Assembly (NCBI GenBank): GCA_003696605.1
Contig: RFGV01000100.1
Coordinates: 1-41,161 of the forward strand
Length of the DNA: 41,161 nucleotides
Direction of reading: 5' to 3'
From: Chloroflexota bacterium
GTDB taxonomy: Bacteria; Chloroflexota; Anaerolineae; Promineifilales; Promineifilaceae
The position numbers and the translations under genes were made by a program. Within the stretch, counting starts at the first letter, position 1; the number at the start of each line of letters is the position of its first letter. Under the pieces are notes generated by a model. It was given only the letters and a program-made list of their open reading frames with translations, had not been told where the DNA came from and did not search any database. Positions 4,428 to 8,062 of this stretch are shown here, piece after piece.

Positions 4428-4455
4428 GTATAACGGCGAAAAAAGGGCTTGACAA
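4428..4455 (-). promoter_or_regulatory. Predicted promoter of the selenoprotein gene
   Basis: On the minus strand TTGTCA (4455..4450) and TATACT (4433..4428) are separated by 16 bp; each matches the sigma-70 consensus at 5 of 6 positions. The -35 box overlaps the -35 box of the divergent tRNA promoter by five bases, so the two promoters may compete. Confidence 0.6.
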
Positions 4456-4477
4456 CTCACAAGGGCTGGGATAACAT
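4449..4477 (+). promoter_or_regulatory. Promoter of tRNA-Ala / T-box / leuS transcript
   Basis: TTGACA (4449-4454), a 17-bp spacer, then TAACAT (4472-4477). The predicted start near 4484 lies about 7 nt before tRNA-Ala(CGC). No equally good promoter is visible between the first tRNA and the T-box leader, so this one may drive the whole unit. Confidence 0.8.
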
Positions 4478-4490
4478 ACTAGCCGCTCTC

Positions 4491-4563
<73 letters not shown>

Positions 4564-4767
4564 CAGAGCTTAACAAGTGAAAAGAAAATGATTGAAAGGC
4601 GTTGAACAGGAGTAGTAGGTACGGCCGTTTCAGAGAGTTGCTCCACCGGCTGAAAGAGCAGCATTTATGTACCGAACTCGCCTGGGAGCTGCGGCGGTGA
4701 ACACCTTGAGGGTCAGTAATCGTCGACGGGTAGCGCACGTTACGCGTTTGAGTGGATGGTTATTTAT

Positions 4768-4840
4768 GGGCCTGTAGCTCAGTTGGGAGAGCACCACAAT
4801 GGCATTGTGGGGGTCAAGGGTTCGAGTCCCTTCAGGTCCA
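4768..4840 (+). tRNA. tRNA-Ala (anticodon GGC), nested inside the T-box leader
   Basis: A complete 73-nt cloverleaf: acceptor GGGCCTG/CAGGTCC with G3-U70, D arm GCTC/GAGC, anticodon stem CCACA/TGTGG with loop ATGGCAT, and T arm AAGGG-TTCGAGT-CCCTT. The anticodon GGC reads GCC. CCA is not encoded. It sits between Stem I/II and the antiterminator of the T-box leader. All expected pairs and the invariant T-loop bases are intact, so it looks like a functional gene rather than a tRNA mimic. Its release by RNase P and RNase Z would cut the leader between the tRNA-sensing and decision domains. Confidence 0.95.
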
Positions 4841-4884
4841 CCTGACGACTTTAGTCGCTACCATCAATCAGAGTGGTACCGCGG

Positions 4885-4922
4885 AAGACCCCTTTCGTCT
4901 CTGAACGAGAGGGGTCTTTTTG
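4885..4922 (+). terminator. T-box regulated intrinsic terminator
   Basis: AAGACCCCTTTCGT (4885-4898) pairs with ACGAGAGGGGTCTT (4905-4918) over 14 bp with one G-U and a 6-nt loop, followed by a T-run. It directly follows the T-box sequence, as expected for a transcriptional T-box switch. Confidence 0.92.
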
Positions 4923-4934
4923 GTTTGGTGTATC

Positions 4935-5561
4935 ATGGAAAACCTGTTTATTGAAACAGATTTTGGATGTGTGTTTGCCAAGTCAGCGGGTGAAATAGGG
5001 GCTCCGTTGGTGTTGGGGATTCATGGCTGGAGTCAGCGGAATGGTTGGCATACCTGGCAACCTTTGATGCCGCCACTGGCGCAGGCTGGCTTTTGGGTGG
5101 TGAGTGTGGATATGCCTGGCTGGGGGCAGAGTGTGGTACGAACGGCCGAACCCATGACAGGAGAGCGGGCGATAACGGCCGTTTGGGGTATCCTGAATGG
5201 ATTGCGGGAATGGGCCGAAACCGAAGGCAAAAACCCACCAGAAACGGCCGTACTCATGGGCAAAAGCTGGGGAGGCGGCGTCGCCCTCAAATTCGCCCTC
5301 AAATACCCCCGACAAGTCACAAAACTCATCCTCACTGCACCAGCCTTCCGCGAGTTTGACCGGCTACCTGAAATCACCCAGCCCATTCTCCTTACCTGGG
5401 CTGAAGACGATCCAGTCATCCCCTTTACCTACGCTGCCAAGTTCGCCGAAGCCTTACCCAACTGCCGACTTATTCCGTATCCCACTGGCGGACACAGCGC
5501 AGCCCAAAACAACGTGGACGATTTTGCACCCAAAGCAATAGAATTTCTTTGCGAAAATTAA
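4935..5561 (+). CDS. Alpha/beta hydrolase under T-box control, 208 aa
   Basis: A compact alpha/beta hydrolase without a large cap. Motifs: 'LGIHGW' at 27-32 (oxyanion region), nucleophile elbow GKSWGG with Ser111, acid Asp158/159 in 'AEDDP', and His187 in 'GGHSA'. It resembles small carboxylesterase or acyl-peptide hydrolase-type proteins; the substrate is unknown. I prefer ATG 4935 to a TTG at 4920, because the TTG lies in the terminator T-run and the protein fold begins after the ATG. The ribosome binding site is weak. The gene is the first cistron after the T-box terminator and ends 56 nt before leuS, so it should be induced together with leuS on leucine limitation, which is an odd partner for a synthetase. 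Confidence 0.88.
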   Translation: MENLFIETDFGCVFAKSAGEIGAPLVLGIHGWSQRNGWHTWQPLMPPLAQAGFWVVSVDMPGWGQSVVRTAEPMTGERAITAVWGILNGLREWAETEGKNPPETAVLMGKSWGGGVALKFALKYPRQVTKLILTAPAFREFDRLPEITQPILLTWAEDDPVIPFTYAAKFAEALPNCRLIPYPTGGHSAAQNNVDDFAPKAIEFLCEN

Positions 5562-5617
5562 AATTCAGAAAAGACAACTTTCATCAAGCCAAATTAGAAG
5601 CAATCAGGAGATTGTTC

Positions 5618-8062
5618 ATGACCAATTCTTACAACCCTCAAGAAATTGAAGCCAAATGGCAACAAAAATGGGAAGAAACCGGCCTGTATCGCCAAAAAAT
5701 TGATTGGGACAAACCCAAACACTACGCCCTGACCATGCTGCCCTATCCTTCAGGCGACTTGCACATAGGCCACTGGTACGCCATGACACCCAGTGATGCC
5801 CGTGCCCGCTTTATGCGCATGAAAGGGTACAATGTCCTCTTCCCGATGGGGTTCGACGCCTTCGGGCTGCCAGCCGAAAACGCCGCCATTAAACGCGGTA
5901 TTCATCCCAAAAAGTGGACCTATGCCAACATCGAGCGAATGCGCAAACAACTGCGAAGCATGGGTGCCATGTTCGATTGGGAGCGGGAAGCGATTTCATC
6001 TGACCCTTCCTACTACAAATGGACTCAATGGTTCTTCTGCAAACTGCTAGAACATGGATTGGCTTACCGTAAAAAAGCGGCTGTGGATTTTTGCCCCCAG
6101 TGTAATACGACATTGGCGCGGGAACAGGTTTGGGGCGAAGATCGCCATTGTGAGCGATGTGGCACTCCGGTCATCAAGAAAGACCTGGAACAATGGTTCT
6201 TTAAGACAACAGCGTATGCTGAAGAATTGCTGGATTTCAGCAAAATTGACTGGCCGGAGCGGGTGCGGATTATGCAAACCAACTGGATAGGCAAGTCAGT
6301 TGGGGCGGATGTTGTGTTCCACACCGAAGATGGGGATCCGATAGAAATTTTTACAACGCGGCCGGATACGCTGTGGGGAGCAACATTTATGGTGTTGGCT
6401 CCAGAGCATCCGCTGGTTGAGAAGATTACGACTCCGGAATATAAGGAGCAGGTGACGGCTTATGTGGAACAGGCACGCCGTATGTCTGATATTGACCGGG
6501 AATCGGCTGAACGGGAGAAAACAGGTGTCTTTACTGGGGCATATGCCATTAATCCTGTGAACAAGGAGCGGATTCCTATTTGGGTGGCAGATTATGTGCT
6601 GATGACGTATGGGTCTGGCGCGATTATGGCTGTACCTGCTCATGATGAACGGGACTTTGCCTTTGCTCAGAAGTATGGCTTGCCGATTGTGGAAGTGATT
6701 CGGATGCCTGGCCGTACAGATGAGGATGGTCCGTTAACTGAGGCGTATACGTCTAAAACAGAAGGCCATTTGATTAATTCTGGTCCATTTACAGGTACAC
6801 CAGTGGCAGGGGCTGCGGAACGGGTGACCGCCTGGCTGGAGGAGAATGGGCTGGGTAAGAAGGCGGTGAATTACCGGCTGCGGGATTGGTTGATTAGCCG
6901 ACAACGGTATTGGGGTGCGCCGATTCCGGTTGTTTATTGCCCGGAGCATGGGGCTGTGCCAGTGCCGGAGGAGGAGTTGCCGGTGGTGTTGCCGGAGGAT
7001 GTGGAGTTTATGCCGACGGGTGAAAGTCCGTTGAAATTCCATGAGGCGTTTATTCATACGACTTGTCCGATTTGTGAACGGCCGTCTTTGCGGGAAACTG
7101 ATACGATGGATACCTTTGTTTGTTCGTCCTGGTATCAGTACCGATACCTGAGTCCTCATTATGACGAAGGGCCATTTGACCCGGAAGAAGGAAAGTATTG
7201 GTTGCCAGTTGATCAATATACAGGTGGCATTGAACATGCGACCATGCACCTGATTTATACCCGCTTCTTTACAAAAGCGATGCGGGATATGGGGTTGGTG
7301 GATTTTGATGAACCGATGCTGGCGCTGTACAACCAGGGTATGGTGCTGGGGCCAGATGGCGAAAAGATGTCGAAGTCGCGTGGGAATGTGATTGCGCCGG
7401 ATGATTTGGTGCAGCAGTATGGTGCGGATACGGTGCGGGCATATTTGATGTTCTTTGCCCGTTGGGACCAGGGTGGTCCGTGGAATTATGACGGGATTAA
7501 GGGGCCACAACGGCTGTTGCAAGATGTGTGGGAGATTGCGCGGTATGACTATGTGCCGGGTGAGGTGAGTAAGGAGGCGAATCGGGCGCTGCGTCGTAAA
7601 ACGCATCAGACGATTAGAAAGGTGACGGAAGATTTTGAATCGTTTGCGTTTAATACGGCCGTTGCGGCTATTATGGAGTTGCGTAACAGTGTTTTGGAGG
7701 CAATGCGAATGGCGAATGTGGATACGGCCGTTTGGGAGGAAGCGGTAAATAATATGTTACTATTGCTGGCTCCCATTGCGCCACACATTACCGAAGAATT
7801 GTGGGCACAGCGTGGCCAGCCGTATAGTATTCATCAGCAAGCATGGCCTACCTGGGATCCAGAAGTGGCCAAAGAGGACACGATTACTCTGGTTGTGCAG
7901 GTAAATGGCAAAGTGCGCGATAAGATTGAAGTGGCCGCCGGACAGGATGATGAAACCTTGAAGTCAATTGCTTTGGCGTCAGAAAAGGTACAAAAGTGGC
8001 TGGATGGTGAGCCGCGCAAGGTGATTGTGGTAAAGGGTAAACTGGTGAATATTGTGAAGTAA
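5618..8062 (+). CDS. leuS: Leucyl-tRNA synthetase
   Basis: Class I synthetase of 814 residues that charges tRNA-Leu in the cytoplasm. HIGH signature HIGH at 49-52 in 'PYPSGDLHIGHWYAM', a zinc-binding insertion with CPQC and CERC at about 158-185, the CP1 editing domain with 'TTRPDTLWGATFMVLAPEHP' near residue 246, KMSKS at about 581-585 ('GEKMSKSRGN'), and the C-terminal 'VQVNGKVRDKIEV' typical of bacterial LeuRS. The length is normal. The frame is open further upstream, but ATG 5618 is preferred because the family sequence begins there ('YNPQEIEAKWQQKWEE') and a CAGGAGA site precedes it. Regulation by the T-box leader at 4591 is likely. Base composition changes inside the gene: it is C-richer before about 6060 and G/T-richer after. 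Confidence 0.98.
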   Translation: MTNSYNPQEIEAKWQQKWEETGLYRQKIDWDKPKHYALTMLPYPSGDLHIGHWYAMTPSDARARFMRMKGYNVLFPMGFDAFGLPAENAAIKRGIHPKKWTYANIERMRKQLRSMGAMFDWEREAISSDPSYYKWTQWFFCKLLEHGLAYRKKAAVDFCPQCNTTLAREQVWGEDRHCERCGTPVIKKDLEQWFFKTTAYAEELLDFSKIDWPERVRIMQTNWIGKSVGADVVFHTEDGDPIEIFTTRPDTLWGATFMVLAPEHPLVEKITTPEYKEQVTAYVEQARRMSDIDRESAEREKTGVFTGAYAINPVNKERIPIWVADYVLMTYGSGAIMAVPAHDERDFAFAQKYGLPIVEVIRMPGRTDEDGPLTEAYTSKTEGHLINSGPFTGTPVAGAAERVTAWLEENGLGKKAVNYRLRDWLISRQRYWGAPIPVVYCPEHGAVPVPEEELPVVLPEDVEFMPTGESPLKFHEAFIHTTCPICERPSLRETDTMDTFVCSSWYQYRYLSPHYDEGPFDPEEGKYWLPVDQYTGGIEHATMHLIYTRFFTKAMRDMGLVDFDEPMLALYNQGMVLGPDGEKMSKSRGNVIAPDDLVQQYGADTVRAYLMFFARWDQGGPWNYDGIKGPQRLLQDVWEIARYDYVPGEVSKEANRALRRKTHQTIRKVTEDFESFAFNTAVAAIMELRNSVLEAMRMANVDTAVWEEAVNNMLLLLAPIAPHITEELWAQRGQPYSIHQQAWPTWDPEVAKEDTITLVVQVNGKVRDKIEVAAGQDDETLKSIALASEKVQKWLDGEPRKVIVVKGKLVNIVK

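Follow-up and report, generated by a model that had tools for sequence, protein, structure and literature searches.

A leucine-specific T-box leader with a complete tRNA-Ala(GGC) gene at the tip of Stem III, a probable dual-output RNA ahead of leuS

The window, a 41,161 nt stretch of DNA from a Chloroflexota bacterium of the Promineifilaceae (contig RFGV01000100.1), carries on its + strand a leader that combines two tRNA genes with a T-box riboswitch upstream of leuS. A promoter-like sequence, TTGACA-17-TAACAT, was located by promoter scan at 4449–4477, 5' of the entire unit. The first gene of the unit is a tRNA-Ala(CGC) at 4491–4564 (ARAGORN; Rfam tRNA, 63.9 bits), about which an earlier note on this DNA was silent. 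An upstream tRNA-Ala(CGC) is found at the equivalent position in most family relatives; at one locus (L041, genome G017) the anticodon of the upstream tRNA-Ala is TGC instead of CGC. Immediately downstream, the full T-box model RF00230 matches 4593–4905 with 98.4 bits (gathering cut-off, 93 bits), and all model positions 1–219 are covered. The match is interrupted only in the Stem III loop, precisely where a single 95-nt insert relative to the model contains a tRNA-Ala(GGC). The Rfam alignment assigns the specifier CUC, a leucine codon for tRNA-Leu(GAG), to 4677–4679, Stem II to 4692–4725 and the Stem IIA/B region to about 4727–4749. Stem III is preceded by GAGUG (4750–4754), read from the sequence as the RRRNG motif; this motif, the AA on the other side of Stem III and their role are described in PMC7778990.

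The two strands of Stem III, GAUGGU (4755–4760) and ACCAUC (4860–4865, followed by AA at 4866–4867), are placed by the Rfam alignment and by folding, and they enclose the embedded tRNA-Ala(GGC) at 4768–4842 (ARAGORN; Rfam tRNA at 4768–4840, 64.7 bits). Read from the sequence, this tRNA has a normal cloverleaf, a GGC anticodon and the G3-U70 pair, and its CCA is not encoded. The antiterminator follows at 4870–4902 (Rfam alignment), with the T-box sequence AGAGUGGUACCGCGG itself at 4870–4884 and the bulge UGGU. It is overlapped by a predicted intrinsic terminator hairpin with a U run at about 4886–4922, which the consensus scan of the window did not flag. An alpha/beta hydrolase gene (4935–5561; PF12146, PF00561) occupies the interval between the T-box and leuS, the leucyl-tRNA synthetase gene (5615–8062; PF13603 editing domain, PF00133), for which a TTG at 5549 is a possible alternative start. 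Similar hydrolase genes are present at two other loci (L165, L174). The earlier note had placed Stem I, the specifier loop, a IIA/B segment, the T-box sequence and the terminator by eye; the RF00230 alignment bears out this anatomy, with Stem I found at 4599–4689 and the terminator recovered as a predicted hairpin. The alignment and the hairpin together provide the mutually exclusive antiterminator and terminator and the UGGN bulge expected of a T-box. The leader has all of the defining features that sequence can show and is classed here as a T-box riboswitch, as a variant with a tRNA inside.

The earlier note had put the tRNA in the place of Stem III, and had proposed that it might act as a structural Stem III. 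An intact tRNA closed by GATGGT/ACCATC is indeed present, but the Stem III helix persists beneath it. Folding of 4750–4868 alone yields exactly the GAUGGU/ACCAUC helix closing the cloverleaf, and this piece is modestly more stable than its shuffles (z -1.07); the minimum-energy fold of the whole leader recovers neither the T-box fold nor the cloverleaf and is given little weight. With anchors set without the use of pairing, positions 1–4 of the helix under the tRNA pair in 79, 79, 71 and 78% of the loci listed, against 50–61% (maximum 68%) when partners are shuffled, a comparison that serves as a guide and gives no probability because the loci are related and not independent. GC, AU, UA, CG and GU pairs all occur across loci, the RRRNG motif is retained before Stem III, and AA lies at the expected site 3' of it in 123 of the 131 anchored loci among those listed. 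Since the helix and its flanks are kept, with covariation in the helix, Stem III is not replaced but carries the tRNA at its tip, and the suggestion of a structural substitute does not hold in the form in which it was put. In a group of Bacillota loci (L225–L232), Stem II and IIA/B are seemingly missing and Stem I nearly abuts the tRNA-bearing Stem III.

Several features identify the amino acid that is sensed. The specifier context is GAA-CUC-G-CC, in which CUC is succeeded by the usual purine and then by a paired CC, so that the switch is read as leucine-specific. A GCC (Ala) specifier, which would match the anticodon of the embedded tRNA, was rejected: its CC is engaged in the lower Stem I helix, and it is CUC that the alignment puts in the specifier slot. 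The host genome encodes a tRNA-Leu(GAG) (contig C401) with discriminator base A (A73), which fits the UGGU bulge of the antiterminator; CUC thus agrees with both the downstream leuS and an existing tRNA. Pairing of the 3' end of the embedded tRNA in cis with the UGGU bulge was set aside because the bulge is thought to require a free tRNA 3' end. Among the loci listed, the CUC specifier motif is present in 143 of 148, and leuS lies downstream in every one of the 60 for which 2.5 kb or more of sequence follows and in 137 of the 143 with 0.6 kb. The host genome has five more T-box matches (L001–L004, L006), four of them above the cut-off and none with a tRNA; their specifiers resemble Ser/Ile, Val, Ile, Trp and Thr codons.

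The arrangement is widespread. The earlier note had called for a search of related genomes for tRNA genes between Stem I and the antiterminator, and at least 154 distinct loci share this organization, 153 with tRNA-Ala(GGC) and one with tRNA-Ala(CGC) among the loci listed. They occur in Chloroflexota (including Thermomicrobia), Bacillota, Atribacterota and Armatimonadota. The search pattern, a tRNA T-loop immediately before a T-box, is blind to alanine, and the uniformity of tRNA-Ala is thus a real finding. Among 40 relatives, nearly all family members with a readable locus carry the unit. The pattern is present in 52 of 400 genomes of the phylum of the window, spread over many families and with a few matches that are not tRNAs, and in 57 of 299 genomes of the phylum of Syntrophomonas wolfei; cmscan confirmed T-boxes spanning a tRNA at the loci checked. 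A scan of named genomes, limited to tRNAs with GTTCGANYCC 19–49 nt ahead of the T-box, returned at least 118 stretches, in which, among those listed, the tRNA precedes the T-box in 111 and is absent in 7. Those with the tRNA include at least 51 from Bacillota, at least 43 from Chloroflexota, at least 6 from Thermomicrobiota, at least 4 from Atribacterota and at least 2 from Armatimonadota, besides at least 1 labelled Thermodesulfobacteriota and at least 4 unplaced, which are possibly mislabelled bins. Two trivial explanations were rejected. Chance matches are discounted by a reversed control pattern, which matched once in 400 genomes, and by the small number (7 of 118) of listed scan stretches without a tRNA. 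Mis-assembly or binning artefacts are discounted by isolates with the arrangement, namely Syntrophomonas wolfei subsp. methylbutyratica, Desulfofundulus, Dictyobacter and Tengunoibacter. A search of a plasmid collection gave tRNA matches only. The earlier note knew of no described example, and none was found in the open papers searched, although further T-box surveys may mention one; parts of two surveys (PMC2494555, PMC3766115) mention Chloroflexi T-boxes and, in those parts, no tRNA inside them.

Gene copy number and promoter layout bear on the source of the tRNA. The tRNA-Ala(GGC) pattern has one match, at the T-box locus, in the host genome and in most of the embedded-type genomes checked. 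Four Atribacterota genomes have one match each, and the Ktedonobacteria-like genomes checked have an occasional second copy. The promoter analysis covered 123 loci in which Stem I could be recognised, comprising, among the loci listed, 79 without and 44 with an upstream tRNA-Ala(CGC). In the listed loci without the upstream tRNA, a strong promoter, often the exact consensus TTGACA-17-TATAAT, lies just 5' of Stem I in 59 of 79 (5.7 expected from shuffling), and a promoter-like site inside the leader occurs in 1 of 79 (1.1 expected). A promoter only ahead of Stem I, combined with a single gene, makes the leader transcript the sole evident source of tRNA-Ala(GGC) at these loci. For lineages with this layout, it follows from the sequences that the tRNA must be excised from the leader. 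In the listed loci with the upstream tRNA-Ala(CGC), an internal promoter-like site is present in 23 of 44 (3.2 expected), and the tRNA may be made separately in those lineages. At the Ktedonobacteria-like loci L082–L096, a promoter-like TTGTCG-17-TATAAT overlaps Stem II/IIA/B, 34–49 nt before the tRNA, a possible double use of sequence.

The window belongs to the group with an upstream tRNA, yet has no internal promoter candidate. The + strand scan gave no candidate in the interval from Stem I to the embedded tRNA, nor 3' of the tRNA, where the earlier note had considered that a separate promoter might drive the antiterminator segment; the candidates all lie upstream of tRNA-Ala(CGC). The release of the tRNA from the leader, which the earlier note had raised conditionally, thus holds to different degrees: it follows for the single-gene lineages with one promoter, and in the window the tRNA is likely cut out of the leader transcript.

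A LeuS tree restricted to embedded loci divides largely into a Bacillota side and a Chloroflexota side, with Armatimonadota within the latter, and places the LeuS of the window nearest to Anaerolineae/Ardenticatenaceae sequences. This topology fits old inheritance plus some transfer. At L120 and L156, an Armatimonadota LeuS with an embedded tRNA branches among Chloroflexota LeuS, which suggests that the whole unit was transferred. Variant loci are also present. First, at L054 (genome G019) both tRNA-Ala(CGC) and tRNA-Ala(GGC) are present, Stem I is gone, and the T-box and terminator are a decayed relic; the switch was apparently lost and the tRNAs retained. Second, L166 (Anaerolineales) has a tRNA-Ala(CGC) with its own promoter-like site, a T-box sequence and a terminator, without Stem I and with leuS farther downstream. 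Third, L061, L063 and L064 are leuS T-box leaders of the same class and share with the window the specifier and a tRNA-Ala(CGC)/tRNA-Ala(GGC)/T-box neighbourhood, but both tRNAs lie 5' of Stem I and the T-box is complete, with a plain hairpin as Stem III. Because the tRNA is kept without a T-box at L054 and outside one at L061, L063 and L064, the link between tRNA and T-box is not obligatory.

The reading preferred here, and considered quite probable, is that a leucine-specific, transcription-terminating leuS T-box also serves as a tRNA precursor, so that the leader has a dual output. One promoter of tRNA strength would drive the whole leader. Stem I, transcribed first, would capture tRNA-Leu(GAG) through the CUC specifier; the complete tRNA-Ala(GGC) at the tip of Stem III would be made next, followed by the antiterminator/terminator. 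With uncharged tRNA-Leu, transcription would proceed into leuS; with charged tRNA-Leu, it would stop, and the T-box terminator would also be the terminator of the tRNA gene. RNase P and 3'-end processing would free tRNA-Ala(GGC) after the decision, splitting Stem I from the antiterminator; cleavage is expected at this stage since the decision is made during transcription, and the link between processing and leuS regulation that the earlier note raised may amount to no more than this order of events. Because the tRNA lies upstream of the terminator, each transcript, stopped or not, would carry one tRNA-Ala(GGC), and the yield would be independent of the decision. The proposal builds on the anatomy, conservation, single-copy tRNA, leucine specificity, downstream leuS, promoter layout and covariation described above; it would entail transcription of the leader as one unit in vivo, processing that comes after the decision, and antitermination with the tRNA in place.

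Other readings differ in what they add to or take from this one. The best of them, given a little less than an even chance, is that a tRNA-Ala gene entered the Stem III loop in a single ancient event and has no regulatory role: it would be tolerated because the loop is free to vary, and stuck there without a promoter or terminator of its own. This is a sub-case of the dual-output reading and is compatible with it. In T-boxes the part that varies is the Stem III loop, the LeuS of embedded loci splits largely between Bacillota and Chloroflexota as old inheritance predicts, some lineages exist in which the tRNA has gained an apparent promoter, and L054, L166, L061, L063 and L064 represent escapes from the arrangement. 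However, the constancy of the tRNA species, its position and the T-box specificity over several phyla exceeds what neutrality would give, though a trapped essential gene could explain it.

A second possibility, which seems unlikely, is that the folding, processing or elbow of the nascent tRNA-Ala alters the switch and tunes the leuS decision. For example, an RNase P cut before the terminator could detach Stem I with its bound tRNA-Leu, or the tRNA-Ala elbow could occupy the Stem I distal loops in cis. Should the tRNA mature from the leader, a cut separating Stem I from the antiterminator is unavoidable, and the extreme conservation of a single tRNA species is consistent with such an effect. 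Against it, the decision is estimated to come only ~1–2 s after transcription of the tRNA, and in several lineages a nested promoter apparently drives the tRNA. If such coupling does occur, tRNA-Ala production and leucyl-tRNA synthetase synthesis would be joined through one RNA, and the conservation of this exact tRNA in this exact T-box would reflect selection for coupling.

Still less probable is that the tRNA is a nested gene with its own promoter inside the leader, borrowing the terminator of the T-box. The excess of promoter-like sites in the interval from Stem I to the tRNA at the listed upstream-tRNA loci and the Ktedonobacteria-like sites overlapping Stem II/IIA/B point in this direction, but neither the window nor 78 of the 79 listed loci without an upstream tRNA have a candidate there. 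That the element is a degenerate tRNA mimic merely shaping the leader is highly improbable: it does occupy the tip of Stem III, but its tRNA score, G3-U70 pair and GGC anticodon are those of a normal tRNA, and most genomes checked have no other tRNA-Ala(GGC) gene.

T-boxes are seen as devices for control alone, and the transcripts that they terminate as waste. On the dual-output reading, the terminated transcript would itself give rise to tRNA-Ala(GGC), of which the cell usually has no other copy, in an arrangement conserved over several phyla, and a single leader RNA appears both to control a gene and to provide the material for an essential tRNA. The expression of a tRNA synthetase would thereby be tied to a tRNA promoter. 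The locus also indicates that Stem III is able to bear a large folded domain, and the embedded tRNA provides a positional marker for T-box history. Because the riboswitch would be cut between its sensor and its decision element, the relative timing of folding, decision and processing is directly testable.

The closest known system is the leuS class of RF00230, which shares with the window Stem I, a leucine specifier, Stem II, IIA/B, RRRNG-Stem III-AA, the T-box sequence, the antiterminator, the terminator and a downstream leuS. The window differs in that Stem III carries a complete and usually single-copy tRNA-Ala(GGC) gene at its tip; to release the tRNA, the leader needs to be cut. GOLLD RNA is a structured bacterial non-coding RNA that sometimes has a tRNA inside, and in this it resembles the leader of the window; unlike that leader, it is not a riboswitch and has no link to a synthetase gene. 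The thrS T-box leader of B. subtilis is cut upstream of its terminator to give a stable mRNA, and is thus a T-box leader subject to cutting, as is proposed for the window. In thrS, however, an RNase cuts within the antiterminator region, and the leader holds no tRNA.
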